Virus record (IMG/VR): IMGVR_UViG_3300015263_000061
Coordinates: 1 to 20,294 of that record
DNA: 20,294 nucleotides
Strand: one strand, 5' to 3'
Source of the DNA: a virus
Below, one piece after another: positions 1,544-18,716 of the stretch. Every line of letters begins with the position of its first letter. The first letter of the stretch is position 1. Made by a program: the position numbers and the translations under genes. Below the pieces are notes generated by a model. That model did no database searches, was not told the origin of the DNA, and saw only the letters and a program-made list of their open reading frames with translations.

Positions 1544-1824
1544 TAGTTGTACTCCTGAATCTCGACAGCTCGACCCGGATCAGCGATCTGCTGTGCTCGT
1601 TGAGCGGTGAGTATTCCTGCCGCCACCATCTTGGTTAGTAATTTGGCAGTCCGAGGACTGGCCACGTCAATCATCTGCATACGCAGAAGTCGTTCTTTAA
1701 CAACCTCAGCCACGACACTGGTCTTGGCTAGGGTGAAGAATGCTTCGAGTTCCTCGTCAGTAAAACGATCAAGGAACTCAGTGCCAGAGATGTACTGGTA
1801 GGGATAGGTAGTTCTAGTCGTCAT
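1543..1824 (-). CDS. Small helical phage protein
   Basis: 93 residues from ATG 1824, which overlaps the stop of the glycine-rich fibre gene as ATGA. An upstream in-frame GTG at 1833 would add three residues but lies inside the fibre gene and is less attractive. After a short Thr/Tyr-rich N-terminus comes an amphipathic helical region (FTDEELEAFFTLAKTS, then VVKERLLRMQ) and a second helical half (RTAKLLTKMVAAGILT). The general form (a ~95-residue protein with an acidic helix followed by an Ala/Leu-rich helix, just after a tail-fibre gene) is common in phages, but I cannot assign a function. A fibre chaperone or a minor tail component is possible from its position only. Confidence 0.8.
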   Translation of the reverse strand: MTTRTTYPYQYISGTEFLDRFTDEELEAFFTLAKTSVVAEVVKERLLRMQMIDVASPRTAKLLTKMVAAGILTAQRAQQIADPGRAVEIQEYN

Positions 1825-3020
1825 ACGATCCACTCAAATAAGACCATGCCGAGCTTTCCGTCTCCACCCGCAAGCGCCCCGACAACGCCATCGCCACGAG
1901 CGCCACTGCCACCTCCCCCAAGTCCAGATCCGGGCGCATTACCAGCCGCGCCAGCAGCTGCTCCATGGGCTCCAACTCCGAAGAAGGAGGCGCCACCTGA
2001 GCCGGATTGTCCTGCGTTGGACCAGCCCCCGGCGAAGTGGTTGGGGATTGATCCTCCTCGTCCTGCGTCGCCATACCCACCACCTCCACCAATGCAGTTC
2101 ATCTCGATGGGGCCACCGCCATCGTACCCGTTGGGAGTACCAGCAGTAGTAGCACCTAGACCATGGTTGGTGACTACGCCACCACCACTGATCTGGTATC
2201 CACCACCGTTACCTCCATTACCATGAGCACCAGCTCCAGGTCCACCAGCAGTCCCTGCTACACCGCCGTAGGCGGTAATGGTCTGCATACCGGTACCAGA
2301 TACATAGGAGTCAGTACCGTTATTGCCAGCAGCTCCAGCGACTCCGGTGCCACCAGCACCGACGTAAGCAGTCAGTGAAGATTGAGCAGTGTCGATCCAG
2401 TAGGGGAAGCGGACCAAGCATCCACCTGCTCCGCCTCCCCCTCCGCCAGCAGTGGTGCCAGCCGTAGTGCCACCTCCTGCTCCTCCCCCTCCCAAGATCG
2501 TTACCCAGACCATCGAGATCTTATTGCCACGGGCATCCGTGGGAATGGTCCACGCATTGGAACCTGTGGTGATGATCCGCTGAGACTGTAGTCTAGAACC
2601 CATGGGCGTCTGCGATAGAACAAACCAGTTAACAGAAGAGCCGTCGAAACACGCGATGAACTGGGCCCATTCATACTGAGCATTCAGCGTGTAGGTCGTA
2701 GCTCCATCAATCGTATCCGACCCGAGTCGGGATACGGTTACTCCGTAGGTGTTATCCAGTACCTTGACGACGTACTGCTTGTGCTTATACGCTACCCCCG
2801 TAGGGAGGTAGATGGTAACAGCACCACCTGCTGCATCCGTATCGACGAGCAGGAAGTAGTCATGCTCTGTCGGGTAGTACTCCGTAGTATCAACATACTT
2901 GGCTCGGGTTAGTCCCTCCCCAAGAACCCACATCCTATCCTGGTACCGTCTCTGAACATAGGGAGACGTACTGTTAAGGGCTGCAGGCTTAGTTGGAATA
3001 ATCTTCCGAGACGTGGTCAT
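1821..3020 (-). CDS. Glycine-rich tail fibre / adhesin protein
   Basis: 399 residues; ATG 3020 overlaps the previous stop as TAATG. There are two visible parts. Residues 1-150 form a beta-rich N-terminal region (VDTDAAGGAVTIYLPTG, KQYVVKVLDN, WAQFIACFDG, NWFVLS), typical of the virion-anchoring portion of fibre proteins. Residues 177-399 begin VTILGGGGAGGG and are packed with Gly runs, broken by short strands such as LTAYVGAGGTG and GCLVRFPYW, and end in GGDGKLGMVLFEWIV. This arrangement, with its hydrophobic terminal strand, is characteristic of glycine-rich phage tip domains built from polyproline-II helices, as in the S16-type gp38 adhesin. The inferred role is receptor contact or a tail/neck fibre tip. 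It lies directly after the gp10-like gene. The opposite strand and the other minus frame are also open here, because of GGN codons, and are not separate genes. Confidence 0.85.
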   Translation of the reverse strand: MTTSRKIIPTKPAALNSTSPYVQRRYQDRMWVLGEGLTRAKYVDTTEYYPTEHDYFLLVDTDAAGGAVTIYLPTGVAYKHKQYVVKVLDNTYGVTVSRLGSDTIDGATTYTLNAQYEWAQFIACFDGSSVNWFVLSQTPMGSRLQSQRIITTGSNAWTIPTDARGNKISMVWVTILGGGGAGGGTTAGTTAGGGGGGAGGCLVRFPYWIDTAQSSLTAYVGAGGTGVAGAAGNNGTDSYVSGTGMQTITAYGGVAGTAGGPGAGAHGNGGNGGGYQISGGGVVTNHGLGATTAGTPNGYDGGGPIEMNCIGGGGGYGDAGRGGSIPNHFAGGWSNAGQSGSGGASFFGVGAHGAAAGAAGNAPGSGLGGGGSGARGDGVVGALAGGDGKLGMVLFEWIV

Positions 3021-5413
3021 TACTTATTCCCGGAAGTTATAAACAGCTCCATACCTTTCGCCCTGAAATCTCCCAAGCAGTGGATAGCCCAGAAGAACTG
3101 TCTCCGTCTAAAGGAACCAAGTCCATGGAAGCTGTAGTTAGCACTCTGCCAGGGGTTAATCTGTCTGCACCGCATACCACCCCACACTGCCCGGAGAACC
3201 ATGTCATCCGCAGCGATGGTGTAGTGGCTCGTACCAGTATCCTCATACATGTTCTGGTAGGCAGACTGCCCCCGCATCGTCAGGTCTGATCCGGTGGTAA
3301 ACTCGTTATCGCTCCAGGCGAACGCGAGCATAGTCGTGTGAGCATCACCTGCAAAGGGCAGGCCGGTGCCCCGAAAATCCGCGACATAATCGGATGAGTA
3401 CCATGGGCCGATTGCTCCAACCTGGGCTGCGATGGTTGAGTCAAGGTTAAGATCGACGTAAGACGCATAGTGATTCTGCAGCTCCTCGAAGAGATCAATC
3501 GTACCGGAGTACGGAATAACCAGATAATTCTCCGGATAAGTTGTATCTCCGTCGTGGACTCCCTTGTTGTTCCATCCCACAATGGGGTACATCTTGCTGC
3601 CGATTAGGCTGGCTCTTGCGCAGAACTTACGATCATTCGTCTCAAAGTCGATGATCGGACTGGTAATGAAGCAGGTGAAGAACTGGTAGTTAGAGGCCGG
3701 AGCAGCGCCGTCGTCGTCGTTATCCATGAACCTCATATCCGATGCCGTCGAGGAGGCAAAGGTTGCGAGGGAGGCGTCAGCCACTCTCCAGATGGAGGAG
3801 GCCGAGGCGTCGATTAGGTACTGTCTCCGTCCCGAGGTAACCGGGTTGCTGGGAGTCTGCGTGTCATCCGTACTAAGGTTAACAGCCCTCAAAGCCCCAG
3901 CAGGGGCTGCACCAGCGGTGCTGGTAAGGGAGTGGTGCAGCATGAACCAGATCGTTTTGTCGTTAGCGTTGAACATCTGGATCATGTTCCCATTAGTGGG
4001 GAAGGGCTTGGTCGGAGGCTTACGCCCTACTCCAGTAACCCAGTCGGCATCACCCACGCCCGTGAAGAAGCTATCGTTAACGTTGCTAGAGGCACCAGCC
4101 AGGGCGCTCATCTGCCAGTGGGGATAGGACAGGTTGTACTGCCAGCCCAGCTGGATCCCGATGTGCAGTCTTCCTCCCATCTCAATAGGCAGGAGAGACA
4201 TAGCTTCGTACACGTTATCCGTGTAGTCATTATTCGAGGCAGCTCGATACATATTCTCGAACTCGGCATTGCTGACTCGGACGGGCTGGTAGCCCTCCAG
4301 TCTCCACAAGCCATTCATACCACCTTCGGCAGACATGCCGATAAAGAAGATGGTATCCTCGTAGTTCATAATCGTCCGGGGATTGACAGCCCCGAACTTA
4401 ACGAAAGCCTCGTTAGTAGATTCGATGTTGAGTCCGTACTCTGCTCCAACATCCGTGTAGAATTCCAGAGACTGGCGACCAAAGGCCAGAATGTGGTGCT
4501 TGTATCGGAAGAGACCAACTCCCTTGTCCGGGTAGCTAATGGCATTCTCGAACATAGGATTACCAGTCTGGTCCACCCAGCCAGAACCAGTCGTGATATC
4601 CCCGATCTCACTACCCCAGATGTACCCATCATCCGTCATGATGTAGGCTCTGCCATTCAGCATGGCAAAGTTACCAACGGTAACCTTCACGCTGCTCCAC
4701 GGAGCACCACCGTAGTGGGTGGCGAAGTCAGTAGTGGTGATCTGGGTAGGAGCGGCCCACGTCCCGCCAGAGAAGGCAGAGTAAAAGCAGGCAGATGCCG
4801 ACCTGTCGGCCTTAGTCCAGCTAATCGTAACGTACGGTACCAGGGCAGGAGCCGATCCAAGGAACGGCGAGTAGCCACTGGCGAACTCATTCAGGAAGAC
4901 CTGCGAGTTAGCATGGAATCCAAACGACGGCGTAGAGCCAGCGAAGTTGTAGCTGGTAATCTCATGAGCCACCATCGTACCGTCACTAGGCTGGAAGAAG
5001 ATGATCTTCAGCGTGGCGTTGGACTGCAGAGCAGACCCATCCGCGTGGATCACGGCTGCCACCATCCAGTCGTCGATGATGCTGATATTCAGGAAGTCCT
5101 TCGGAGTCCTCTGCAGGGGGTAGTTAGCTGCTACCCCATTCCAGTTATCGAAGACAGTATCCCAGTTGGTATTAAGAGATGCGTCATCCAGGTTGGTATT
5201 GATACCGGTCCTTTTCTGGACCCACACATCCTTGGACCCAGTGATGGGATCCGAACGAGTCTCGGCCCAGCAGTTGATAAGCTGCTGGCCCTTCCCGCTG
5301 AACAGTTCACCATAGGACGAGACGGCCGTGCCGTCCGCCATGGTCTCATCCTCCACGCTATAAAGCGGGATAACGATCTTGTTCTGGGTCTCTTGTAGCT
5401 TAGCGACGGACAT
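3020..5413 (-). CDS. P22 gp10-like tail/DNA stabilisation (nozzle) protein
   Basis: 797 residues; ATG 5413 overlaps the end of the adaptor gene by 14 bases, with only a weak SD. Early in the protein (residues 47-69) the INCWAE...VWVQKRTG pattern resembles the opening of packaged-DNA stabilisation proteins, which normally read N-x-x-(x)...K-R-PG. Residues 308-323 (ILAFGRQSLEFYTDVG) match the conserved hydrophobic-G-x-x-S/Q-x-E-F/Y core of P22 gp10. They are followed by the FVKFGAVNPRTIMNYEDTIF and GLWRLEGYQPVRVSN segments expected of its beta-propeller. P22 gp10 (about 470 residues) extends the neck below gp4 and seals packaged DNA. This protein is much longer, mostly through extra N-terminal and C-terminal beta-rich sequence, so it may carry additional tail domains. 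The neighbouring gp4-like gene supports the call. Confidence 0.8.
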   Translation of the reverse strand: MSVAKLQETQNKIVIPLYSVEDETMADGTAVSSYGELFSGKGQQLINCWAETRSDPITGSKDVWVQKRTGINTNLDDASLNTNWDTVFDNWNGVAANYPLQRTPKDFLNISIIDDWMVAAVIHADGSALQSNATLKIIFFQPSDGTMVAHEITSYNFAGSTPSFGFHANSQVFLNEFASGYSPFLGSAPALVPYVTISWTKADRSASACFYSAFSGGTWAAPTQITTTDFATHYGGAPWSSVKVTVGNFAMLNGRAYIMTDDGYIWGSEIGDITTGSGWVDQTGNPMFENAISYPDKGVGLFRYKHHILAFGRQSLEFYTDVGAEYGLNIESTNEAFVKFGAVNPRTIMNYEDTIFFIGMSAEGGMNGLWRLEGYQPVRVSNAEFENMYRAASNNDYTDNVYEAMSLLPIEMGGRLHIGIQLGWQYNLSYPHWQMSALAGASSNVNDSFFTGVGDADWVTGVGRKPPTKPFPTNGNMIQMFNANDKTIWFMLHHSLTSTAGAAPAGALRAVNLSTDDTQTPSNPVTSGRRQYLIDASASSIWRVADASLATFASSTASDMRFMDNDDDGAAPASNYQFFTCFITSPIIDFETNDRKFCARASLIGSKMYPIVGWNNKGVHDGDTTYPENYLVIPYSGTIDLFEELQNHYASYVDLNLDSTIAAQVGAIGPWYSSDYVADFRGTGLPFAGDAHTTMLAFAWSDNEFTTGSDLTMRGQSAYQNMYEDTGTSHYTIAADDMVLRAVWGGMRCRQINPWQSANYSFHGLGSFRRRQFFWAIHCLGDFRAKGMELFITSGNK

Positions 5414-6152
5414 AGCTATAGTCAGGCTGAATGTACAGAGAGTCGTCCTGGTTAGCGTTAAACATCGCGTACTGGTGTAGTTCTCCAGCTTTCTTTTGGA
5501 TCATCTGCCGCTCTTGCAGAGCAACACCGTAGGTGTACGACAAGTCGGCTGCAAGGTTCCACACCAGGGCTCGATGCCACTCAGGCGGGAAGGAGATGTC
5601 TGCATCCAGGCTGTTCAGGTTCATGACCGGTGCTTCGTAGATGAGCACCAGATCATACTCGGTAGCTGCAGTCGTATCCGGGATCGGCCAGATCCGGATC
5701 TCACCGTACCAATCGGTACCGGTGTAGGTGTCTATTTGCGGATGGTGGTACCATACGGCGACGGGCGTTCCCTCGTGAGTCTTGTTAGGGAGAGCCCAGT
5801 ACTGTTCCCTAGTCCAGAGCTGAAGTGGGATGTCGATGCTGTTGGTATCGCGCCTGAAAGCTTGTAGCACACGTTCCGGCGCCACGGACGTGAAGTGGGG
5901 AGCAGCTTGCGTATCCCCGATCTTGTACGTTCCTTGAGATGCCGTAAGATCGAAGGCTTTCTGCTGAATGGCCCAGATGGCCATCCCGTCAGAGATCCAG
6001 CTTTTGGTGAGTGAATCAAGGACTCGTCTTGCATAGTCATTCTCCCTGTAGCCCAGGGACTCATCCGGACCAATAACACCAAGAAGACGCAGAGCGTCGT
6101 CTATAATGGACTGGGCATTGTACCGGGCGTTATAGGTTCCAGTAACCGCCAT
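5400..6152 (-). CDS. Head-to-tail adaptor, P22 gp4-like
   Basis: 250 residues. ATG 6152 overlaps the preceding stop (TAATG), with GAGG six bases upstream. The N-terminal helical part reads QSIIDDALRLLGVIGPDESL, then ARRVLDSLTKSWISDG, which is the usual helical start of gp4/tail-tubular-A type adaptors (about one helix pair per subunit in a dodecameric ring). A beta region follows (WTREQYWALPNK, GEIRIWPIPDT, EYDLVLIYEAP) and then another helical end (WHRALVWNLAADLSYTYG). The product is expected to sit under the portal and connect it to the gp10-like protein encoded next. It is longer than P22 gp4 (166 residues) and closer in size to T7 gp11-like tail tubular proteins, so family placement between these is uncertain. 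The connector role is well supported by sequence type and context. Confidence 0.8.
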   Translation of the reverse strand: MAVTGTYNARYNAQSIIDDALRLLGVIGPDESLGYRENDYARRVLDSLTKSWISDGMAIWAIQQKAFDLTASQGTYKIGDTQAAPHFTSVAPERVLQAFRRDTNSIDIPLQLWTREQYWALPNKTHEGTPVAVWYHHPQIDTYTGTDWYGEIRIWPIPDTTAATEYDLVLIYEAPVMNLNSLDADISFPPEWHRALVWNLAADLSYTYGVALQERQMIQKKAGELHQYAMFNANQDDSLYIQPDYSYVRR

Positions 6153-6520: not shown

Positions 6521-7246
6521 CTAGAGTCCCGAGGTACCAGAGGCGACAGCAATCTGACCAGCCCACGGATGATACTTGGTATAGTAGTAACCAGTGCTCG
6601 GATCCTGGTAAGTAACCCTCACAGAGATCCTAATGACGCCAGTCTGCACCACATACGGCGAGTAGTACGACCCTTGGGAGCGACCGTTGGTCGTCGGATT
6701 GGCCGCAGTAACAATTGCGCCGTGAACGATGAGATTTGGCGTCCCGTTTGTTTGGCCAACCGGTGCTGTAGAGGGATCCCACCGCCCGACCATCTGGTTA
6801 AAGAGGGTATCCTCGACGGTTGAGGAGCTCGTGGTGTCAATTGGCGTACCGCCAACATCGTCTCCGTTATTGACGATGATAACATCAATGTCAGGATCCA
6901 CTCCCAGAAGGATCCAGGGAGCATCCGCATCCGGATCGAAGTAGACATAGATCCTCGATCCATCCGGCAGGACCACGATACTCAGAACATCCAACACGTT
7001 ACCTTGATCATCGGTAACAACGACCGTACCCCAGGACTCACCGCCAGTAGACTCAGGACGAACCCAGTCAGGAGCACGCTCGGAGCGAGGCACCCGGTAT
7101 AGATCCCGGATATGCCTCGGCTCCCAGTCTTCCTTGCACACCATGAGCCCGTCCCAGCGGGGCTTCAGCTCATAGTGCTTCTTCTTAAATCCACAGACAT
7201 CGCAGATCGCGTTGCGCTCTGTAGTCCGGGGTTTGCTCCTATACAT
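6521..7246 (-). CDS. Virion-type protein with N-terminal zinc-finger-like motif
   Basis: 241 residues; ATG 7246 overlaps the stop of the upstream paralogue gene (TAATG). The first 45 residues contain C15-D-V-C18 and, after a KPRWDGLMVC37KEDWEPRH stretch, a third Cys, with D40 or H45 as a possible fourth ligand. Short proteins with a CxxC...RWDGLxVCxxDWExRH signature recur in phage structural modules, and the fold is probably a small zinc ribbon. The rest is beta-rich. Residues 75-100 alternate Val/Ile with Asp and Gly, a low-complexity Asp/Thr/Ser-rich region follows, and the C-terminal part holds the strand-like GVIRISVRVTYQD and YYYTKYHPWAGQ. Function is unknown. The position between appendage and neck genes suggests a virion or assembly component. 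Confidence 0.8.
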   Translation of the reverse strand: MYRSKPRTTERNAICDVCGFKKKHYELKPRWDGLMVCKEDWEPRHIRDLYRVPRSERAPDWVRPESTGGESWGTVVVTDDQGNVLDVLSIVVLPDGSRIYVYFDPDADAPWILLGVDPDIDVIIVNNGDDVGGTPIDTTSSSTVEDTLFNQMVGRWDPSTAPVGQTNGTPNLIVHGAIVTAANPTTNGRSQGSYYSPYVVQTGVIRISVRVTYQDPSTGYYYTKYHPWAGQIAVASGTSGL

Positions 7247-8751
7247 TAGACGACACTCAAGTAGGGATCGACGTAGAAGGAAAGGTCCTCACCGTGAGCC
7301 ATGAATCGCCAGTAGATGTACCCATCGCTAACCGTCGTAAAGGTTACCGAGTGGTCCTGAGCAATCCAGCCCGTAACAGCCGTATCCTTGGTCCACGACG
7401 CCGCATCTCCAGCCGTAACCGTGTCGTTGGGCGCTGCCCCTTCCATGGAACTGGTGAAGTCCAGCAACCCTTCCGTGGCGGAGTAGGGATACATGATCTC
7501 TAGATGACACTCGTCGTGGGTCAGACCCGCTGCCGCGTCGACTAGGGTACTCATCGTAGCAGTATAAGTACCGGCCGTCAGATAGTGGGCAATCCACTCA
7601 CCCTCAACAATAGCGGCATCGTTAGATCCATTCCCCGTCGTGACTTTCCACGAGACGGAGGTTCCGTCGATAATGGCGCTCTTGTATCTGGTCGTATCGC
7701 TGACGACTGCCGATTCATCCGAAGGCCACATCGCATATTTCGACAGGTCCCCGGAGTATCCACGCACGACCACTCGGCGCGTGTTGTTATATGCCGTGCT
7801 CGCGGGTGAAGCCGCGATACCCGTGGCTGGCATATTGCATCCGATAAAGACTATGTCGCCAATACAGTAGTTACCAACACCTCCCGAACCAACGGGATAG
7901 AAAGGATTTGCTCCTTGCGAGAGATCTGCACCGATAATGTTGTTACCAGTCTGACTCTCCCCCAATCCGAGGAAGGTGGTTGGAGCTGTCCCTCCGGAGG
8001 AGATCCCTCCGCCGTACCAGTTGAATTGTCCCGAAGTATGATAAGTATACTGAGTGGATGCCCCAAACTTAACCCAGCAGCCCAGGAAGTCCACACGGTT
8101 TCTCATAGTCGAGGTGTTACCGCCTCGCAAAAAACTGTTTGCTTGGGTCGTATTGATTTCAAACGTACAGTCCACGATCTCCTGATTAAGAAGAGTGAGA
8201 CCAGATCCGAGGGCTAGAATTACCTGCCCGGTTCCCGGACCAGTACCAGCCGCATCAAAGTCGAACCCGAAGGCAGTCGGGAGGTTATAGGTAAGCGTCC
8301 CGTTAGCTGAGAGCGAGAAGGTGGCTCCCCGACGATAAGTATTGTCGGCCGGATCAACCGAGATGTAGGTAACATCAATGCCAGAGGCTTGTCCACCAAT
8401 CGTATAGTTGGTAGCTACACCATCTTCGACGTGATTATAGGCAACCAGTACGACATCCCCATCTACCAATTTGGTGCCGGAAATGCGGTTAGTCAGTTGA
8501 GTTAGGGAGCCCACTGGCTTGGACCAACCATCCGAGCCGGAGCGATAGGTGAAGGTAACACCACCGCTAACAACCGTCCCGGAAGTTGGCCACGAAGGTT
8601 CTGTACCAGCCGACGTTCCGGCTACAGTAACCTCGTAGGTTCCAACACTCGTCGCCGTGATCGAGGATGGCCGGACCATCTCTCCCAGAGAATAGGCCGT
8701 GGAGACGGTATAGGTGGTTACTGAGTTACTGTTAACGTAGTAGGTCGTCAT
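7246..8751 (-). CDS. Beta-rich phage appendage protein, paralogue B
   Basis: 501 residues; ATG 8751 overlaps the stop of paralogue A (TAATG), with GAGGTGG upstream. The N-terminal module carries AYSLGEMVRPS and GTSAGTEPSWP, then GTVVSGGVTFTYRSG, similar to small carbohydrate-binding-like modules at the start of many phage fibre proteins. The middle is a series of Gly/Asn/Asp-rich strands (YGGGISSGG, IVDCTFEINTT, FLGCWVKFGAS) like a right-handed beta-helix. The C-terminus has GTYTATMSTLVDAAAGLTHD and ends in VSDGYIYWRFMAH. It aligns along its whole length with the gene immediately upstream (8751-10235), so the pair arose by tandem duplication. The inferred role is a surface or tail appendage that binds the host or glycans. 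No catalytic residues are obvious, and a head fibre is also possible. Confidence 0.8.
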   Translation of the reverse strand: MTTYYVNSNSVTTYTVSTAYSLGEMVRPSSITATSVGTYEVTVAGTSAGTEPSWPTSGTVVSGGVTFTYRSGSDGWSKPVGSLTQLTNRISGTKLVDGDVVLVAYNHVEDGVATNYTIGGQASGIDVTYISVDPADNTYRRGATFSLSANGTLTYNLPTAFGFDFDAAGTGPGTGQVILALGSGLTLLNQEIVDCTFEINTTQANSFLRGGNTSTMRNRVDFLGCWVKFGASTQYTYHTSGQFNWYGGGISSGGTAPTTFLGLGESQTGNNIIGADLSQGANPFYPVGSGGVGNYCIGDIVFIGCNMPATGIAASPASTAYNNTRRVVVRGYSGDLSKYAMWPSDESAVVSDTTRYKSAIIDGTSVSWKVTTGNGSNDAAIVEGEWIAHYLTAGTYTATMSTLVDAAAGLTHDECHLEIMYPYSATEGLLDFTSSMEGAAPNDTVTAGDAASWTKDTAVTGWIAQDHSVTFTTVSDGYIYWRFMAHGEDLSFYVDPYLSVV

Positions 8752-10235
8752 TATGCCACCTCAATCGCGGGGCAGATATAGATATTCGTGCTTTGCTTAA
8801 ACACCGCCCCTCTCCAGTAGACATACCCATCACTCAAGGTAGTGATCGTAACCGGATGGACCTGCCCGATCCAACCAGTACCAGCAGCACCCTTGGTCCA
8901 TTCAGCCTCCGTGGCACTGGCATCTGTAGTCGTAACGTCAATCCCTTCGAAGCTGGTTGCAATACCCAACAAACCCTTGGTAGTGGAATTCGGATAGAGA
9001 ACCTCACACCAACAGTGATATTCCGGCAACCCTGCCGCTGCATCCATAAGGGTGTGCATCGTGAGTGTGTACGTTCCGGCCGGAAGCCAGTGGGCGACAA
9101 ACGGAGTTCTGGTAATCCTCTTTGTAGAGGCAGGAGTCGAGATATACCAAGAGACCCCTTGACTGTCTATGAAGGCAGCCCGGTAGACAGCCGTCGTGTG
9201 GTTAATGGTTGACTGCCCCTGCACTCCCGTAAGTAGGTAGGGGTACCCGTTCGAGCCTTTGTGGATGACCTCCATCGCGCCTGTATAGGTACCGGCAGGA
9301 CCGGGGGCAACGAAACTGGTCGACAGTTTACATCCGGTCGTCTCAACCTTGACGTAGGGATCGGTCGTGCTCTCAGACGAGCCGACCATGTAACCCGCAG
9401 CCGCCATTGCCGAGAAGTCGAAGCCGTTGAACTCAGCGTGTCCACCACCATCGCCGGGGTTGAGGAACTCGTCAATAGCTGCACTGGTAGCGTCGATTCC
9501 ACCACCATTGAACCACACCTTACCGGAGTAGAAAAAACATTGGGAATCGGTAGCGGCGGCCTTGAACCAGCAGTCGTTAAATACCGCCAATCCATTAGCG
9601 TTTGCCGTGGTCCCAAGTCTCCAGTGAGATCCTGTGGTATTGGTAAGTTCGAACTTACAATCACTAAACGTTTGTTTGGCCCCGTTCGTACTAGACCGGA
9701 AGTTGATGTGGCCCGCCGAAGCGGCTCCTGATCCGTTAATGAAGTCAAATCCGTAGAAAGCGCAACTGCCCAAGATCGTCGTGGTTGTACCGCCGTAGAT
9801 CTTGGCACCGCGTTCGTACTGATCGGTAGACGAGTTCACCGAGACGGCAGACGCATGACGACCACCGGTCAGGTTGTTAAAGAGTGTCTTGGTAGTGGTC
9901 GTTGGTTCAACGTGATCCGAAGCTACCTTAACCGTTACCCCGGTGTTCGTAAGAGCAGTGAAGTTATAACCAACGGTTGAGAGTGCTCCAAAAGGAACAG
10001 CCCAAGACGTACCGGCTCTAGCTGTAAAGGTGGCCGTTCCAGAGACCGTAGTATTCCCTAGAGTCCCGGTCCACGCGGGTTCCGTTCCTCCAGAGGTTCC
10101 AGCAGTGGTACACTCAAAGGTCCAGTAACTCGCCTCCGTATTCGTCGGGGTCACCACGTCCCCGAGTGCATAGGCGGTGTTAATCTGGAACAGTGGTGCC
10201 TGATTGCTGTCTACATAGACAACAGCATTAGTCAT
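8751..10235 (-). CDS. Beta-rich phage appendage protein, paralogue A
   Basis: 494 residues from ATG 10235, with AGGAG five bases upstream, eight bases after the preceding stop. Its order of segments is the same as in the following gene: AYALGDVVTPTN and GTSGGTEPAWTG in the N-terminal module, FYGFDFINGSG, SDCKFELTNTT and FNDCWFKAAAT in the beta-helix-like middle with WFNGGGIDATS, and HWLPAGTYTLTMHTLMDAAAGL plus LSDGYVYWRG near the end. Identity is highest at the two ends and low in the centre, as in fibre or spike proteins whose exposed part evolves fast. It is predicted to be a virion appendage or adhesin. It lies between the small capsid-associated proteins and the neck genes, so attachment to head or tail cannot be decided from position. 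Confidence 0.8.
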   Translation of the reverse strand: MTNAVVYVDSNQAPLFQINTAYALGDVVTPTNTEASYWTFECTTAGTSGGTEPAWTGTLGNTTVSGTATFTARAGTSWAVPFGALSTVGYNFTALTNTGVTVKVASDHVEPTTTTKTLFNNLTGGRHASAVSVNSSTDQYERGAKIYGGTTTTILGSCAFYGFDFINGSGAASAGHINFRSSTNGAKQTFSDCKFELTNTTGSHWRLGTTANANGLAVFNDCWFKAAATDSQCFFYSGKVWFNGGGIDATSAAIDEFLNPGDGGGHAEFNGFDFSAMAAAGYMVGSSESTTDPYVKVETTGCKLSTSFVAPGPAGTYTGAMEVIHKGSNGYPYLLTGVQGQSTINHTTAVYRAAFIDSQGVSWYISTPASTKRITRTPFVAHWLPAGTYTLTMHTLMDAAAGLPEYHCWCEVLYPNSTTKGLLGIATSFEGIDVTTTDASATEAEWTKGAAGTGWIGQVHPVTITTLSDGYVYWRGAVFKQSTNIYICPAIEVA

Positions 10236-10243
10236 GGAAACTC

Positions 10244-10477
10244 CTAGATATCAAAGGTAAAGTCTTCGACACCACTACCACCCATGTCATCCGTGCCCAT
10301 AGTGCCGTCGCCAAAGACATCAGCGGACTTTTTGCGCTTCCTGCGCCACGCCGCTGCCGCTAACCCCGGAGCGTCTGCTTGCCACGGGCCTTTGCCCGCT
10401 CCACCTTTCCAGGGTTTGTAGTTATTCGTAACCTTGGAAGTATACTGATGTCCTACAAGAATAACGGTTGATGCCAT
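10244..10477 (-). CDS. Small hypothetical protein with basic centre and acidic tail
   Basis: 77 residues from ATG 10477. A strong GGAGGA SD precedes the start but lies in a self-complementary element (10481-10494). The N-terminus is strand-like (STVILVGHQYTS). The centre is Gly/Lys/Trp-rich (PWKGGAGKGPWQ) followed by AAAAWRRKRKKS. The end is acidic and Gly-rich (GTMGTDDMGGSGVEDFTFDI). The charge split suggests a flexible linker or nucleic-acid contact, but no family is recognised. It lies between two structural-type genes. Confidence 0.7.
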   Translation of the reverse strand: MASTVILVGHQYTSKVTNNYKPWKGGAGKGPWQADAPGLAAAAWRRKRKKSADVFGDGTMGTDDMGGSGVEDFTFDI

Positions 10478-10516: not shown

Positions 10517-11035
10517 TTAAGTATTTTGAAGTACGGTAAGAGCAGCCGAACCACTCGTGTAGGAGGTTACGTTTAGTCTAACTGCGGTTACCGGAAAAGC
10601 CAAGTTACCTACCGTCGAAGAGGTGAGGCCCGTCAGAGTCGAGTGATCGTAGGGCTTGATGATACCAAACCGACAGTAGTGCGCTGCGCTCAACCCCGAG
10701 TCGGCAACCGTATAGGTGAAGGAGGTTGCACCAGGGACAGAGGCCACAACACCAGTAGTCGTATCGAAGGGCGAACCAGCCCCTTCGACGATTACCGTAT
10801 CACCCACTTGAACGATGCGAGTACCGTCGTGGGTGACTGTAGCAGTCGTAGTAGATCTGGAGATCGAACCAACAAAAGGACAATCCAACCGGTCAAGGGT
10901 GTACTGTACCTTGCTGGTATTCGTACCAGTAACGTCAACCGACATGGAGATCTCAGTGCCTGCCTCAGAGGCAGATTCCACCGGAACCCATGCCGAGGTA
11001 GTAGCCGATCCGACCTTAACCGTGCTGTGAATCAT
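10517..11035 (-). CDS. Beta-rich virion-type protein
   Basis: 172 residues from ATG 11035, with AAGGAG seven bases upstream. It is rich in Thr, Ser, Val and Gly, with few charges. Residues about 70-115 hold a recognisable small beta-domain pattern, THDGTRIVQVGDTVIVEGAG followed by a TTGVV...SFTYTVADS segment. This pattern of Gly-D-x-V-x-V and Phe-x-Y-T-V strands is frequent in phage head or tail decoration proteins. It has no signal peptide. It follows the capsid gene and another small beta-rich protein, and a UUCG hairpin lies just after it. A capsid-associated or minor virion role is inferred; the specific family is not known. Confidence 0.8.
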   Translation of the reverse strand: MIHSTVKVGSATTSAWVPVESASEAGTEISMSVDVTGTNTSKVQYTLDRLDCPFVGSISRSTTTATVTHDGTRIVQVGDTVIVEGAGSPFDTTTGVVASVPGATSFTYTVADSGLSAAHYCRFGIIKPYDHSTLTGLTSSTVGNLAFPVTAVRLNVTSYTSGSAALTVLQNT

Positions 11036-11046
11036 GGTCGGTCTCC

Positions 11047-11454
11047 TTAGACAGTACCAGGAGCGATACCGTTACCGTCAGTGTAAACCAGAGTAACCGT
11101 CCAATCACCAGCGTTCGAAGCCGTACCCGACTCCGCATAGATACAGTAGATCACGGTAGGAGTCGTGAACACAGTCTGAGCCGTAGCATCTGCTACAAAG
11201 ACTCCGCCGTTCCCAACACCAGCCGCGAGCACGTTTGCCGACCCGAACTCCGTGGCGGTCGCCGAATTGCCGAGCGAAACAGTAGCGGTCGTACCGGCGT
11301 CCGACGCCGTTCCCTGGAAAATAGCACCCAGGAAGCGAGCACCTTTCGGCAGAGTGGCCAGAGCCGTACCAGTCGTCATCGAACGGGTAACCGTCCGAGT
11401 CTTGCCCTTAAGGGGCTTAGGCCCGCGAAGCAGGCTTTCTTTCAATGCACCCAT
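11047..11454 (-). CDS. Small virion-type protein downstream of major capsid gene
   Basis: 135 residues from ATG 11454, with a near-perfect AAAGGAG six bases upstream. After a basic start (KESLLRGPKPLKGKTRTVTR) the sequence is Ala/Thr/Gly-rich and strand-like (ATLPKGARFLGAIFQG, ATVSLGNSATATEF, TPTVIYCIYAES, GDWTVTLVYTD). The composition and position right after the major capsid gene suggest a capsid decoration or head-stabilising protein. I do not recognise a named family. A bulged hairpin separates it from the capsid gene, which could allow the two to be expressed at different levels. Confidence 0.8.
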   Translation of the reverse strand: MGALKESLLRGPKPLKGKTRTVTRSMTTGTALATLPKGARFLGAIFQGTASDAGTTATVSLGNSATATEFGSANVLAAGVGNGGVFVADATAQTVFTTPTVIYCIYAESGTASNAGDWTVTLVYTDGNGIAPGTV

Positions 11455-11511: not shown

Positions 11512-12411
11512 TTACGCGCCCGGCGAACCGAAGACACCGCGCTTGTCCGTGGCGCCGACCGAGTAGCGGGCCGTCGCTTTGAACTTCGCGTTGTCGGTAT
11601 CGAAGTCGCCGTCCATCGTGAACGTATCCGGACGACGCTCTTTCAGAATGAGGCCGTGCGGCACGTCGGTCTTGATGAACCACGCATCCGTGTCCGTCAG
11701 GTAATGGTTGACAATAACGCCACCAGGGAACTTCGAACGAACGACGTTCACCGTGTTGTTATTGGTGCCCGGCTCGTACTCAGTCTTCATCAGCTTGTCA
11801 GCTTCGAAGGAGAGATCCACCGGAACGATGAGGCTCTGCGGACGAACCGCGATCTTGAGACCGCGCTCGTTCGTGTACTTCCCGAGGTCGATACACGCCT
11901 GCTCCAGCGCCGCCTCCGACAGGTCAGCAGCGGTCGTGAGCTCGTTCGCCCAGGTCGCGCCGACAACGGTCGGGTGGTCAGTCGCACAGAGTTCCTTCCC
12001 GTCACCGTACACATAGGTGTTGCTGAAGGCACGGTTGAGGACGTTGGCTGCAACGATCTCTTTGGTTTGACGCATCGAGAAAGCAAGGCTCTTCGCCTTC
12101 TTCGGAGCGATGACATCGTACTGATCGTCTTCCACCATCTCACGGGTGATGATGAAGCCCAGCCCGTAAGTAATGTGGGTATAACGATCCACGAAGCCCT
12201 GCTGGCTGTCGTCGTACACAACCGACGCGCCCTCGCCTTTGACCTGCGCGAGACCGAAGCCAGACATCCCGACTTCCTCTTCCCAAGCCTTGCGGCTCTT
12301 CTCGACCGTGAAGATCTTATCGTACTCGGTCGCAAACTCTTTGTAGCCATCCCCGTACCAACGGTTTACACCAGGCCAGAGGGCGGCAGCAAAACTACCA
12401 GTGTTAATCAT
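11512..12411 (-). CDS. Major capsid protein (HK97-fold, Mu gpT-like type)
   Basis: 299 residues from ATG 12411, with a strong GAGGAG seven bases upstream. The N-terminus has GYKEFATEYDKIFTVEKS. The centre carries YTHITYGLGFIITREMVEDD (residues about 78-97), a pattern typical of the E-loop/spine-helix region of Mu gpT-like HK97-fold capsids. It is followed by MRQTKEIVAANVLNRAF, a long helix, and a P-domain-like end with RPQSLIVPVDLSFEADKLM and AWFIKTDVPHGLILKERR. The length (about 300) is usual for this group. Gene order (portal, co-chaperonin, scaffold, decoration-type protein, capsid) and the strong SD fit a highly expressed shell protein. The protein builds the icosahedral head. No N-terminal delta domain is visible, consistent with the separate scaffold gene. 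Confidence 0.85.
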   Translation of the reverse strand: MINTGSFAAALWPGVNRWYGDGYKEFATEYDKIFTVEKSRKAWEEEVGMSGFGLAQVKGEGASVVYDDSQQGFVDRYTHITYGLGFIITREMVEDDQYDVIAPKKAKSLAFSMRQTKEIVAANVLNRAFSNTYVYGDGKELCATDHPTVVGATWANELTTAADLSEAALEQACIDLGKYTNERGLKIAVRPQSLIVPVDLSFEADKLMKTEYEPGTNNNTVNVVRSKFPGGVIVNHYLTDTDAWFIKTDVPHGLILKERRPDTFTMDGDFDTDNAKFKATARYSVGATDKRGVFGSPGA

Positions 12412-13520: not shown

Positions 13521-14371
13521 GATCCGCTCCTCGCGTTCACATAATCCGCCATATACTCATCCTCAGTCATAAGCTTCAGCTTATTAACGTAGGTGTCCAT
13601 AATCTGGCGCTCTCCATCGGACATAGACTTTTTAGCCTCGGCAAACTTCCCGTTTCCGGACGGCCGTGATGCACCCCTATGGGTTCCTCCAATGCTAGGG
13701 CTTGGAGGCGCTGAACTGCCCTTGCCCTTCCCAAACTTCTCAGGGAAGCGAGTCTTGACCCGCTCTTCGACCAGGGATCCAAGCAGCTTCGGATCCATTG
13801 GCCCCCCGTTCTTTTTGAGAATGTGGGCTACGGCTGCGTCTGCATAGATGTGGAGCTCTTCGTCCTCTAGATACCAAGGGTTCCGAGACACCCACGCCTG
13901 ATACGCTTCGGACTGAACAGGGGCCTGTTGTTGGGCTTGTTGTGGCCGGTCAGCTTCGCGTACATGATCCTTGATGGCATCAATTCGTTCTTCGATGGCA
14001 TCGGCTGCCACGAAGTCGTCGTTCTCAAGCGCTGCCCTTCTCTGAGCCCGAAGGTCCTGGATGGCCTTCTGGTACGCTTGACGTGCCACCTGCATGTTCT
14101 GTTGGTGGAGCTGGTGATAGCTTTGGCGCATCTCTTGCACCTCGTTCCCAAGACGCTTGATCTTGGAAATAAGCTCACCACGTTCCAACCATTCCTTCGC
14201 AGGACGCCATTCTTCCGGATTACCGGAGAACTCTTCCTTGGGTCGCCAGCCTTGTTCGTAGGCGATCTCCTCGGTAGGAGTAAGTTCTACACGTTCCGGT
14301 TCTTGCGGTGCTGCTTCTTGTACCGGAGTCTCTAGGATCTCCGGAGTTACTGGTTTAACCTCTTCAGACAT
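13517..14371 (-). CDS. Scaffolding protein
   Basis: 284 residues. ATG 14371 overlaps the co-chaperonin stop by 8 bases and has GAGGAG seven bases upstream. The N-terminus is acidic and Pro/Glu-rich (EEVKPVTPEILETP). Residues 65-140 form a long, highly charged helix with coiled-coil character (ISKIKRLGNEVQEMRQSYHQ, LRAQRRAALENDDFVAADAI). A QAQQQAPVQ-rich hinge follows, then a compact middle (WVSRNPWYLEDEELHIYADA), and a Gly/Ser/Pro-rich basic linker before the last helix (NKLKLMTEDEYMADY). Such composition and its place between portal and capsid are typical of internal scaffolds, which guide procapsid assembly and then leave or are cleaved. No protease motif is present. Confidence 0.8.
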   Translation of the reverse strand: MSEEVKPVTPEILETPVQEAAPQEPERVELTPTEEIAYEQGWRPKEEFSGNPEEWRPAKEWLERGELISKIKRLGNEVQEMRQSYHQLHQQNMQVARQAYQKAIQDLRAQRRAALENDDFVAADAIEERIDAIKDHVREADRPQQAQQQAPVQSEAYQAWVSRNPWYLEDEELHIYADAAVAHILKKNGGPMDPKLLGSLVEERVKTRFPEKFGKGKGSSAPPSPSIGGTHRGASRPSGNGKFAEAKKSMSDGERQIMDTYVNKLKLMTEDEYMADYVNARSGS

Positions 14372-14708
14372 CTACTTTCTCCTCTTTGGGCGGGAGCACA
14401 GCCAGAATGTCAACGTCATTCATGACCAGGAGACGTTCTTCAGTGTCCGGGTGCGTAATTGCTCGCCCCGAGTACTTGCCGAACATCACCCTGTCTCCCT
14501 CCTTGCACCAGGGCTGACCGTCGAAACTCACGTCAGGCGACTTGTACGCCTGAGAGCCTAGGGCCACCACAGTGCCGGTGGTTACTGCCATTGCGAGACG
14601 ATCTTCCTTCTCGCCGTACTCCAGAAGGATTCCTCCCTTGGAGACCTTCTCAATTTCCTCGGGCTTAACTAAGACCCGAAACCCTACTACCGTTCCGATA
14701 TTACGCAT
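14364..14708 (-). CDS. GroES-like co-chaperonin
   Basis: 114 residues. ATG 14708 is preferred over an upstream in-frame start at 14813 because GGAG at 14716-14719 has ideal spacing and the start overlaps the previous stop by 8 bases. It matches the GroES fold throughout: GFRVLVKPEE (first strands), then KVSKGGILLE (mobile loop with I27-L28-L29, equivalent to the GroES IVL motif that binds GroEL), TTGTVVALG, CKEGDRVMFGKYSG (beta-barrel) and ERLLVMNDVDILAVL (C-terminal strand). The mobile-loop segment is about five residues longer than in E. coli GroES, a trend also seen in T4 gp31. It probably caps host GroEL to help fold capsid proteins. No GroEL-type gene is visible in this window. Confidence 0.9.
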   Translation of the reverse strand: MRNIGTVVGFRVLVKPEEIEKVSKGGILLEYGEKEDRLAMAVTTGTVVALGSQAYKSPDVSFDGQPWCKEGDRVMFGKYSGRAITHPDTEERLLVMNDVDILAVLPPKEEKVDV

Positions 14709-14904
14709 CGTCTGGCTCCATATACAAAACACTGCGGTATGCAGTAATTTGGCCGGACAGAAAAGCATCGGAATATTGATCTTTACCAGCTGTTCTTCCC
14801 AACGTCTCTTCAAGTTCCCTAACCCTGAAACCTACTGTTTGCATCACTCTATCTGTTACCGGGTGATCTAACCACTCACCCCACATCGCTCTGTCAATTG
14901 CCAT
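14701..14904 (-). CDS. Small helical protein between portal and co-chaperonin
   Basis: 67 residues. ATG 14904 overlaps the portal stop (TAATG), and its stop overlaps the co-chaperonin start by 8 bases. It contains WGEWLDHPVTDRVMQTVGFR, then RELEETLGR and a C-terminal GQITAYRSVLYM helix. The W-L-x-H-P-V-T opening followed by paired helices and a GxIxAYRxxL motif is a familiar pattern of small proteins beside phage portal genes, but their function is not known to me. The tight coupling suggests a head-assembly accessory. Confidence 0.8.
   Translation of the reverse strand: MAIDRAMWGEWLDHPVTDRVMQTVGFRVRELEETLGRTAGKDQYSDAFLSGQITAYRSVLYMEPDDA
14716..14719 (-). promoter_or_regulatory. SD that fixes the co-chaperonin start
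   Basis: GGAG lies seven bases before ATG 14708 on the minus strand. This spacing is ideal. It selects that start over the longer upstream frame, whose extra residues show no resemblance to the GroES fold. Confidence 0.7.
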
Positions 14905-17195
14905 TACTTACCTTTTTTCTTGGACGCTCCTTTCGCCGGGGAGCGGGGCCGACCGCCAGCTGATTTGGTTTTAGCTAGCGCCTGACTCTCGGCCATCTCT
15001 TCCTTGTGCCGTAGAGTCTGCTCATGTTGGGCTGCCTTGGCAGCACTCTCCATCTCTAGGTTCCTGCCCTTCACTTGGGCAGCGTGTTGATCCATGGCTG
15101 CATCCAGATTAGCCTTGCGCTCCTGCTGCATGAGTTTCATTTGGCCCTCACGTTCTCTGAGAGCCATCTTCAACTCTTCCAGTTGAGCCTTCAGCAGGCC
15201 GAGCTCACGCTCGACATCAAGGGCGTTCATCTCCTTGACCATGTCCATCTGGTGCTTCTCTTTGTCCATCTCGTGCTTGGCTGCGTCGATCTTACCCTTC
15301 ATCTCCATAGCCTGGACCTTGGGATCCGGAGCCGGAGGCGGAGGTTGGACAATAAGCTGTTCAGCCTGGGGAATCTCCAGAGCATTGGCCATAAGCTTAC
15401 CAAGCAGGGGTACGTTAACTACCCCGAGCGGCACCAAGAGCTGAGTAACCTGCTGGTACTTCTGCATCCTGGTAGCAGCGCTGTCACCCGTCGGGTCTGC
15501 TGACGGGATGATGTCGTCCTCTGGGCCATCGTACTCGTTTGGCTGCATCGGAACGTTAAGGATTTCACCAGTCTTACCCTTCAGGGATTCGTATACCCTG
15601 TTAAGACCGTAGATCTTCTTGAACTCTTTGTAGAGAGCCCGGTAGAGTCGCTTGTAGATTGCCGTGAAGACCTTCATCCCCTGCTCCACCGTTTCCTGGG
15701 TGGTAGTAGCCGGGGTGTTCTGTCCGGGCATCTTGCCCGTGAAGATCTCTGCGATACTTGCCAGCTTGTTCCCCGACTCGATCAGAAGGTTGAGCAGGTT
15801 GAACAGGACAGGCGAGGGATCCTTTACAGGAAGGGGTACAAAACCTCCTTTAATTTCGTCTGCAGTCGCATTCGCCACTTTCCATTCGCCAGGACGCCAG
15901 GGCTGATCCCCCATCTTGATGCGGAGGCTCTTAGACATGACTCCGCTTTGTAGATTGGAGAGAGAACCAGCGTCAATAAGCTGATTAAGGACAGTGTTGA
16001 TAGCATCATTAAGACTACCAAGAAGGTACCCAAAGCCGTTATCGTAAATAGCGGAATCTGGATTAGGGATAAAGCCAAACTTGGTAAAGTATTGGATAGG
16101 CTTGATGCTAATGATCTCGCCATCCTCTGACTTCTCAACCCCCTCGCTAGACCAGCATGCGACGATCCGTACCACCTTTCTAGACCGTGCATGGACGACC
16201 ACCATGTATGGCTCTTCGTATCCATCGTCATCGAGGTCAAGATAGGTGTATTGACACAGGAAGAGATGGGGAGCTGCTGCTTCATCTTGTCCTGGTTCGT
16301 CGAACTGCTCGTCGAAGTTTTTCTCCGGACGCTTGTCGTCTTCTGAATCCGGACCATTTTCGAGTTCTTCTTCGAGTACGTCAAGGAACTCTTCGTCTCT
16401 CCGTACCTTTTCAATGATCTGATTCTTCGTAAGGTAAACAAGCTCTGTCTTGCGGTAAGCGCTCTCGACAGTTTCGGCGTGGTAGTTGATGATGAACTGA
16501 TCCGGCGTGAGCCACTTGCTGCAGAGTTTGTCATTTTCTACATACGTCTTCTTGAAAGAGACTCCAACCACCGGGTTGTAAGTAAGCAGCCTGTCCATAT
16601 CCTCTTCCCAGTTCTCGCACTGGTACATGATCTGGTAGGACATGTGCTTCCCAATACGGACAGCCCGCTCCAAGCGGGAACCATCTGGATCGTAGCCGAT
16701 GACGCGAGGCTTGACGATCTGGTTATCGTTCGGCACCAGGGACGGATACGCCCTGGCTGCGAACTGCATAGCTGCCGTAGCGATTAACGGATACTTGACA
16801 TTAGCTGCACCCGGCCAGGGATAACTCTTCTCGTCCGCGAGCAAGAGGGCTTCGCGTAGATACTCCTTATTTCTTTCGAGCCAGGGAGCAACTGTCTGTA
16901 GATCTTCTTCGTAGCCATCATAAACCTTTTGGCCAATCTCCTCTAGGAGAGGTTGACCATCCTCCGTTTTCTTTTTCTTGAGCCGCTTCGCAATGTTTGC
17001 TTCGCGCATCGCGTAGTCAAACAGCTTCTCCATCTCAGCTTCCGGATCAATCATCTCCTCTTGAGGAGCGCCCTCCGGCATACCTGGCATGGGCGGCTGT
17101 CCTGGTTGTGGCATCCCCGGCTGGGGCATTCCACCACCTCCCATGGGATCCATAGGATTCGGTGCCTGTTCCATACCTGGTTGAAGTGGCATCAT
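14904..17195 (-). CDS. Portal protein (P22-like)
   Basis: 763 residues from ATG 17195 (a second ATG follows immediately), three bases after the terminase stop. The N-terminal 45 residues are Met/Pro/Gly/Gln-rich and probably disordered. The core has PWPGAANVKYPLI (residues about 125-137), a hallmark of P22-type portals, then QFIINYHAETVESA and NGFGYLLGSLNDAINTVLNQ, the latter corresponding to the region near the tunnel helix. The C-terminal third (about residues 640-760) is a long charged, Gln/Met/Lys-rich helix with heptad features, comparable to the P22 barrel, and ends in a Lys-rich SPAKGASKKKGK tail. A dodecameric ring at one vertex, serving DNA entry and exit, is the expected role. The length is close to P22 gp1 (725). 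Confidence 0.9.
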   Translation of the reverse strand: MMPLQPGMEQAPNPMDPMGGGGMPQPGMPQPGQPPMPGMPEGAPQEEMIDPEAEMEKLFDYAMREANIAKRLKKKKTEDGQPLLEEIGQKVYDGYEEDLQTVAPWLERNKEYLREALLLADEKSYPWPGAANVKYPLIATAAMQFAARAYPSLVPNDNQIVKPRVIGYDPDGSRLERAVRIGKHMSYQIMYQCENWEEDMDRLLTYNPVVGVSFKKTYVENDKLCSKWLTPDQFIINYHAETVESAYRKTELVYLTKNQIIEKVRRDEEFLDVLEEELENGPDSEDDKRPEKNFDEQFDEPGQDEAAAPHLFLCQYTYLDLDDDGYEEPYMVVVHARSRKVVRIVACWSSEGVEKSEDGEIISIKPIQYFTKFGFIPNPDSAIYDNGFGYLLGSLNDAINTVLNQLIDAGSLSNLQSGVMSKSLRIKMGDQPWRPGEWKVANATADEIKGGFVPLPVKDPSPVLFNLLNLLIESGNKLASIAEIFTGKMPGQNTPATTTQETVEQGMKVFTAIYKRLYRALYKEFKKIYGLNRVYESLKGKTGEILNVPMQPNEYDGPEDDIIPSADPTGDSAATRMQKYQQVTQLLVPLGVVNVPLLGKLMANALEIPQAEQLIVQPPPPAPDPKVQAMEMKGKIDAAKHEMDKEKHQMDMVKEMNALDVERELGLLKAQLEELKMALREREGQMKLMQQERKANLDAAMDQHAAQVKGRNLEMESAAKAAQHEQTLRHKEEMAESQALAKTKSAGGRPRSPAKGASKKKGK

Positions 17196-17198
17196 TCG

Positions 17199-18716
17199 TT
17201 AGTACCCCGTAGTCTTGTTACGCCCCTGTTGAGTATGACCACTTTCGCGCATAAGATCCTCATACTCATCCTCGTCGATCTCTTCCTTGGTAGGAGCCTC
17301 GACCATCCTGTTGAGGACTAGGCCCAACTGGGCCGAAGCATCTACCAAGTCGTCCCGACGGGTGCGAGGGAACGAGCATAGCTGGTCGATGTAGGTCTGG
17401 GCCCATGGGGCTTCCATGTCCACCTTGACCTTTCCAGCTCTGGCTCGAGCCCTGAAACTCTGAACCCGTTGAGTCTTGTCATTCCTGGACGCCGTTGCGT
17501 ACAGGTTCAAGTAGATCCCGGTCTCATCCTGCCGCCTCTTGAGAAACGGCATGACCGATGAGGCGATCTGTCCCTTTTCGAAACAGAACACCTCTGGTTC
17601 GTACATCGCTTGCAACTCGAAGAGGGTTTCAACCGCCCTCTCTGAGTCCATCCTCTCGTAGATAACGTGCTTGATCAGAAGATCGTGGCTCTCTGTTACC
17701 GCCCCGATCACGAAAGCACTGTAGTCCGAGTAAGTCTCTTGCGTTACCGCCAAGTCGAACCCGACGTAGTAGTGACAGGTCTTTTCCCTGTCCTCCATCG
17801 TCATCTCTTTGAAGTCTGCCCGCCTGAACTGGGCAGTAGTTTCATCGAGAGGCTGGTTCAGGTACTCTTGAGCGTACCCTTCCGGGTGTCCCCGCTCAAT
17901 GTACATGTCGCGTATGGCGACTAGGTCCTCTTTACTGTGCCGTTCGGGCCACAGTATCTTAGAAAAATCGGTTACTGACGGATGAGCACGATATAAACGG
18001 GAATACCATCCGGATTCGCGCGTTGTATACGTTACTAACCCGTCAGTAACACAGAACTTGTCTGTCTCTTTCGGCATTAAGGACGCCAACAGGCTGTCCT
18101 CATGCAGGATTGTGCCGACGATTCGGATGATTCCGCTCTTAGCCCTGATGGGGAGGAGAGTATTGAGGAACCATTTGAGGAGTTTGTCCCTCCGGTCCTT
18201 ACTCATCACCAGCTCATCGTTCTCCATGTCATCACAGATGATGAGATCTGGTCTTTTACCGCCCCACTTGAAGCCTCGAATCTTCTGGCCCGACCCTTTG
18301 GCCACGATTCTTGCCTCGTGACCGTCAACAAATCTGATAATAATGTCCGTCTCTGTGTCCTTTGGCCACTTCTCGATCTCCTCGATCCCGAAGAGGGCCA
18401 TCAACTTCTCGTTCTCCGAGAGTTCCTTCTTGATATCCGCCAAGAAGAGGACACTCTGAGCCTCCGTATCGGAGACCAATACTACATAGCTGGCCTCCCG
18501 GAAGATCACCTTGCAGATTAAGTACGCATGGGTGATCGCTGTGCTCTTTGCGTGGCCCCGTGGGGCCGCTATTGCTACGAACTTGGCACTGCTGCAGCAC
18601 ATGTCCCACCATTCCGTATGACACTTCGGGGTGGGAACTGGTTCATCAAACCCTGACATCAACAGCGTCTTGACTACGCCGTGGATCGTCTCGCCCGATA
18701 GGCGCTTACTCGACAT
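17199..18716 (-). CDS. terL: Terminase large subunit
   Basis: 505 residues. ATG 18716 overlaps the end of the previous gene by 11 bases. The packaging ATPase is visible: Walker A APRGHAKST (residues 51-59), Walker B DLIICDD (157-163) with the catalytic acid, and coupling motif GTIL (201-204). The nuclease half follows: YVGFDLAV (D321), VFCFEKG (E380) and RRDDLVDA (D455, D456, D459), the three acidic clusters of the RNase-H-like fold. Together these show a motor that cuts concatemers and translocates DNA through the portal encoded next. No clear small-terminase gene is seen upstream. The end (EEIDEDEYEDLM) is acidic. Confidence 0.95.
   Translation of the reverse strand: MSSKRLSGETIHGVVKTLLMSGFDEPVPTPKCHTEWWDMCCSSAKFVAIAAPRGHAKSTAITHAYLICKVIFREASYVVLVSDTEAQSVLFLADIKKELSENEKLMALFGIEEIEKWPKDTETDIIIRFVDGHEARIVAKGSGQKIRGFKWGGKRPDLIICDDMENDELVMSKDRRDKLLKWFLNTLLPIRAKSGIIRIVGTILHEDSLLASLMPKETDKFCVTDGLVTYTTRESGWYSRLYRAHPSVTDFSKILWPERHSKEDLVAIRDMYIERGHPEGYAQEYLNQPLDETTAQFRRADFKEMTMEDREKTCHYYVGFDLAVTQETYSDYSAFVIGAVTESHDLLIKHVIYERMDSERAVETLFELQAMYEPEVFCFEKGQIASSVMPFLKRRQDETGIYLNLYATASRNDKTQRVQSFRARARAGKVKVDMEAPWAQTYIDQLCSFPRTRRDDLVDASAQLGLVLNRMVEAPTKEEIDEDEYEDLMRESGHTQQGRNKTTGY

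Follow-up and report, generated by a model that had tools for sequence, protein, structure and literature searches.

Two adjacent, divergent copies of a putative spike gene in an environmental virus and the protein family to which they belong

The window analysed here is a virus record of 20,294 bases (IMG/VR record IMGVR_UViG_3300015263_000061, positions 1 to 20,294), in which every structural gene lies on the minus strand. Two adjacent genes in it, each an uninterrupted open reading frame (ORF), encode spike-like proteins of 494 amino acids (aa) (copy 1, P0002/B494, 8751..10235) and 501 aa (copy 2, P0001/A501, 7246..8751). Probably, an old tandem duplication gave rise to both, and they now represent diverged versions of a single virion spike, a receptor-binding appendage, of a P22-type podovirus. 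By their sequences, both belong to a family of about 500 aa that was not found in the databases searched and is apparently unnamed. The spike family is new, but its kind is already known.

Homology and descent of the two copies

In a BLASTP comparison, the two proteins were identical at 176 of 502 positions (35%, E = 1e-71) from end to end, which bears out the initial annotation of this DNA, where two adjacent full-length paralogues had been proposed. The score of the pair alignment was 676, compared with 57 ± 9 for shuffled sequences (maximum 90, n = 300), and each of the five fifths of the protein, the centre included, was individually significant against shuffles (z 5 to 49). Against 66 other large proteins encoded in the same slot of related phages, that is the stretch from the capsid to the tail adaptor gene, the two proteins reached mean scores of 63–64 and maxima of 115 and 102; the pair thus aligns better than unrelated beta-rich proteins do. 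The sequence segments from which the relationship had been deduced are all found in both proteins in identical order, namely AGTS[AG]GTEP[SA]W, DC.FE and CW.K, GGGI, DAAAGL and SDGY.YWR. An assembly artefact was ruled out by a second contig from the same metagenome, which has 6 mismatches in 12,418 nt but none within 7246-10235 and hence matches both genes without difference. This phage, represented by the two contigs, is the only one found of its lineage.

Over the first 80 residues the copies are 49% identical; the value falls to 29% in the centre and rises to 45% over the last 150 residues. The initial annotation had described the central parts as different and explained this by divergence of the exposed part after duplication. 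The centres are indeed divergent, yet they are homologous, and throughout the family described below conservation is lower in the centre (mean identity 37%) than at the ends (55% and 50%). The ratio of identity in the middle to that in the ends is 0.55 for the window pair and 0.69 ± 0.11 for ordinary family pairs, 8% of which are equally low, so that the value for the pair lies at the low end and is a weak sign of divergence linked to the duplication. Judged from these alignments, the pattern of conserved ends and a divergent centre is real and mostly a property of the protein. Third-position identity amounts to 0.34, 0.30 and 0.37 in the N-terminal, middle and C-terminal regions. Synonymous sites are therefore near saturation everywhere, which rules out recent gene conversion between the ends and indicates that the duplication is old.

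Relatives in environmental phages

Neither protein gave a match at 1e-3 in direct tblastn searches against named phages. With copy 1 at E ≤ 10, all matches among those listed fell within the N-terminal ~100 residues, mostly in a small N-terminal module (from here: N-module). Two relatives used as queries against named phages and scans of genome contigs with the queries A1 and A7 likewise yielded no match, and among the named phages and bacterial genomes searched there was none with a full-length relative. Neither protein was significant in PDB sequences, Pfam or NCBIfam, while in PHROGs the N-module alone was recognised. Scans of IMG/VR with the entire pair or its C-terminal part returned the sister contig only. 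In phages with a related capsid, a full-length relative of the pair was present in 0 of 83 slot loci; a 493-aa protein of an Alcaligenes phage encoded in the same region (L005 7900-9378) did not match the pair and is thus unrelated.

The family was obtained in two steps. IMG/VR was scanned with the N-module alone, and from the module-bearing proteins so collected, full-length relatives were picked with a profile built on the pair; a second scan with three of these relatives led to 43 loci. With the pair and 48 others from IMG/VR, the family comprises 50 distinct full-length members. For a non-circular test, a profile was built from the other members with the pair left out. It found copy 2 at E = 9.2e-39 and copy 1 at E = 5.7e-33. 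With the N-module removed, the bodies still matched at 1.8e-18 and 2.8e-12, and the central parts taken alone at 5.8e-11 (copy 2) and 2.3e-9. The C-terminal domain of copy 1 by itself was matched weakly (0.006). The controls, 50 shuffled and two reversed sequences, all remained unmatched.

Most family loci carry a single copy. Two or three adjacent full-length copies were found at six loci besides the window (L111, L171, L182, L183, L193 and L202), so that 7 of about 40 distinct loci, the window counted, are tandem arrays. Identity between copies within arrays is 32-62%, and the copies in the other arrays retain the body and the C-terminal domain. In an IQ-TREE phylogeny of the 50 members, sister pairs were formed by the copies in the window (support 100/100), in L111 (100/100) and in L202 (100/99) and, in L183, by two copies of the three (98/94); L171 likewise has one sister pair among its three copies, with weaker support (93/96). 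Hence, on this tree, the closest relatives are the mates from the same array in at least four arrays. The tandem duplication followed by divergence that had been suggested for the window therefore agrees with the phylogeny, and sister pairs in several arrays indicate that duplication occurred several times. The copies in L193 are not sisters, which shows that distinct copies were brought together at least once; for L182 the branching was not settled by the tree. The branches of A501 and B494 are long, with over 2 changes per column, which makes the depth of the window branch unsure without affecting the pairing.

These arrays bear on the possibility that both paralogues co-assemble, for example into a heterotrimer, and are both needed for one heteromeric appendage. 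The C-terminal domain is the trimerisation part in the K2-2 and P22 tailspikes (PMC10936425), and it is unusual in the pair, with 43% identity between the two copies compared with at most 24% to any other member. Moreover, the start codon of copy 2 shares one base with the stop codon of copy 1 (TAATG; GCATAATG), which suggests coupled translation. However, sister descent alone also predicts similar C-termini, and the number of copies per array varies from 2 to 3. Because most family loci are single-copy, the protein should normally work alone, and we regard a heteromeric spike as unlikely.

Family members further differ in one place. Most of those of about 650-950 aa have ~170-180 extra residues near profile position 467, within the C-terminal domain. 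In several of them the insert is a SPRY domain (PF00622); the match exceeds the curated cut-off for L193 and L202 and is weaker for L171, L182 and L199. SPRY was not detected in the inserts of L183 or L198 and is absent from the window pair. In L096, L099 and L135, a second module of the N-type stands at about the same C-terminal site. From these alignments, the site appears as a recurrent insertion hot spot. The repeated addition of domains at one, presumably exposed, loop supports a binding role.

Predicted architecture

A first AlphaFold2 (AF2) model from a two-row alignment had a pLDDT of 37 and was discarded. With 35 family rows, copy 1 was modelled at a pLDDT of 76.9 and a pTM of 0.67, with confidence <50 around residues 312-340. 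The model has a small beta-module (residues 1-75), a ladder of strands (about 100-345) and a beta-sandwich (380-494). On the minus strand, copy 1 thus divides into the AGTSGGTEPxW N-module (residues 1-80, 9996..10235; PHROG 20658, E = 9.5e-7), a predicted beta-helix (residues about 100-345, 9201..9938) recognised by the AF2 strand ladder and by Foldseek, and a predicted C-terminal beta-sandwich domain (residues 351-494, 8754..9185), possibly like carbohydrate-binding modules (CBMs), from the AF2 model and Foldseek. The corresponding parts of copy 2 are the N-module (residues 1-80, 8512..8751), the divergent central part matched by the family profile (residues 81-350, 7702..8511) and the C-terminal domain, assigned from its identity with the counterpart in copy 1 (residues 351-501, 7249..7701). 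By homology, copy 2 should have the same fold.

In a Foldseek search of the PDB, the only matches <1e-3 were tailspikes and tail fibres (ten chains, probability 0.99-1.00), led by the K2-2 tailspike (8IQ5/8IQ9/8IQE; E = 1.7e-8, probability 1.00) and including CBA120 TSP4 and the Kp7 gp52 tail fibre. The C-terminal part matched CBM16 (probability about 1.00, TMt 0.41-0.49), CBM61, CBM4 and CBM22. In BFVD, an uncultured-phage protein was matched at 9.6e-22, together with many tail fibres and depolymerases. The beta-helix-like character originally ascribed to both proteins is therefore supported by the family-based model and the tailspike matches, though the global TM-scores are low.

K2-2 is reported to be a tailspike capsule depolymerase of a Klebsiella phage, in which C-terminal beta-sandwiches mediate trimerisation (PMC10936425). 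Like it, the pair is predicted to have a beta-helix followed by a C-terminal beta-sandwich; it may likewise form trimers. Unlike K2-2, the pair has another N-terminus and gave no evidence of catalytic glutamates, there is no detected sequence similarity, and the TM-score is low (0.17-0.28). The match to an enzyme, together with the tailspike-like helix, raises the question of whether the copies are polysaccharide depolymerases, i.e. enzymatic tailspikes with one polymer per copy, a view that overlaps with a spike function and does not exclude it. Conserved acidic positions are few in the 35-row alignment, however (D100, E110 and D273 in the body, E52 in the N-module), with no catalytic pair identified and no match to a Pfam enzyme family, which makes an enzymatic role doubtful.

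Gene neighbourhood and function

The pair stands in a tail and receptor-binding gene neighbourhood. In the 43 capsid-related phages compared, the length of the slot ranges from 1.4 to 9.5 kb, and large genes within it match pectate lyase, beta-helix, laminin-G lectin, GDSL lipase, endosialidase chaperone and gp53-like tail fibre proteins as well as many tailspike and fibre PHROGs. Family members in phages with unrelated capsids adjoin tail adaptor and gp10-type genes (L176, L178, L184 and L187). Others come right after large tail proteins (L099, L202); in L111 a pre-neck appendage protein precedes, and in L178 a tail fibre is nearby. Since members occur among unrelated capsids beside tail-type genes, the family appears to have moved between phage types while being kept in receptor-binding neighbourhoods. 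This synteny and the SPRY inserts of the relatives favour the adhesin role suggested at the outset. The only other paralogue pair within a slot of the capsid-related phages (L020, 13770-14294 and 14566-15174; 39% over 142 aa) is unrelated to the family.

The location directly after the capsid genes would also suit head fibres or capsid-decoration glycan binders that sit on the virion surface rather than the tail and attach it loosely to cells or mucus-like matrices. A further point for this reading is that the PHROG matched by the N-module, 20658, is labelled 'head decoration'. Members of this PHROG, e.g. in Brevibacillus phage Sundance, resemble the pair only in the ~65-residue AGTSGxTEPxW module and, unlike the pair, are without the body and C-terminal domain. 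Yet the module is mobile: it is present in many other phage structural proteins, tail proteins among them, and in many proteins of IMG/VR consisting of the module only. In addition, members elsewhere follow tail, neck-appendage or tail-fibre genes, and the slot occupants of related phages are tailspike- or depolymerase-like. A position on the head is thus unlikely. An assignment of the N-module to CBM5/12 was rejected as insufficiently supported, with 1 of 20 modules matched (E = 0.006).

We therefore return to two spike copies as the probable reading. Each would consist of the small N-module, a beta-helix body and a CBM-like C-terminal beta-sandwich, and would most likely form a separate spike on the virion's tail or neck. 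Helix and sandwich may attach to polysaccharide on the host surface, and through their divergent centres the two copies could allow one phage to recognise two glycan variants as receptors. Several points weigh against this reading. The only PHROG label of the N-module is the one for head decoration, and as the module is promiscuous it is no proof of a tail anchor. The Foldseek TM-scores are low to tailspikes (0.17-0.28) and <0.5 to CBMs, so that the structural match holds at the level of the fold class. In Pfam, no beta-helix, Pect-lyase or NosD family matched P0001 or P0002 at E ≤ 1. Finally, the faster centre is near the family norm and is not by itself evidence of selection on the duplicates.

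Gene order in the window

Upstream of the pair, the minus strand encodes the terminase (17199-18716), the portal protein (14904-17195), a GroES-like protein (14364-14813), a scaffold-like protein between the latter and the capsid gene, and the major capsid protein (11512..12411), which is 47-54% identical to the capsid proteins of L005-L007 and forms the upstream border of the variable slot. The GroES-like co-chaperonin gene, located within the head module, is kept in 66 related loci. Two small genes (11047-11454 and 10517-11035) and a previously unlisted ORF of 77 aa with a Gly/Asp-rich end (10244-10477) follow, the latter immediately upstream of the pair.

Downstream, copy 2 overlaps the next gene, encoding a CxxC protein (6521..7246), by one base, again as TAATG. 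In relatives, the N-terminal ~70 residues of this protein (CxxC, C) are conserved and mark the interval from the capsid gene to the head-completion gene; they match a protein in 59 related-phage loci that is often small and stand-alone, and are here fused to ~170 unrelated residues. Then come the tail adaptor or head-completion protein (5400..6152; PHROG 12985, E = 2.9e-28; homologues annotated as tail adaptor), the tail stabilisation protein of the P22 gp10 type (3020..5413; PHROG 578, E = 1.2e-15) and a glycine-rich tail protein (1821-3020; Gly_rich_2; PHROG 863, tail fibre assembly), possibly one more appendage. Of the six positions at which the sister contig differs from the window, five fall in the gp10-type gene (4448-5372), four of them inside 142 bases; the sixth is at 14213. 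Two low-complexity proteins encoded downstream of the tail genes (292-861 and 854-1543; Gly/Gln/Met/Pro-rich and Asn/Thr-rich) had no homologues among the related loci examined.

Implications

Most of the phages known to carry several receptor-binding proteins are enterobacterial phages. In the Ackermannviridae, including CBA120, there are several spike genes per phage with a proposed origin by gene duplication, and the tailspikes have N-terminal Gp10-like/XD assembly domains in common and vary C-terminally (PMC11414711, PMC7506556). The window resembles these phages in having several putative spike genes in one genome. It differs from them in that a Pfam search found no Gp10-like/XD domains in the pair, which keeps both ends and varies in the centre.

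The family as a whole might form a modular spike system, an idea we put forward tentatively. In this view, binding domains of different kinds (SPRY or the N-type module) would plug into a socket in the C-terminal sandwich. Tandem duplication of entire genes, occurring repeatedly, would furnish a single virion with two to three co-expressed spikes that differ in specificity, and would do so in phages whose heads and tails are of quite different types.

The results describe a putative spike family of environmental phages in which tandem duplication has occurred repeatedly and in a lineage-specific way, and in which domains have been inserted recurrently at one site. Many proteins that now lack annotation can thereby be assigned to a defined family with a predicted fold. 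The arrays offer a natural series for asking how phages gain receptor specificities by copying whole spike genes. In this way, one virus may present several different grips on bacterial surface sugars.

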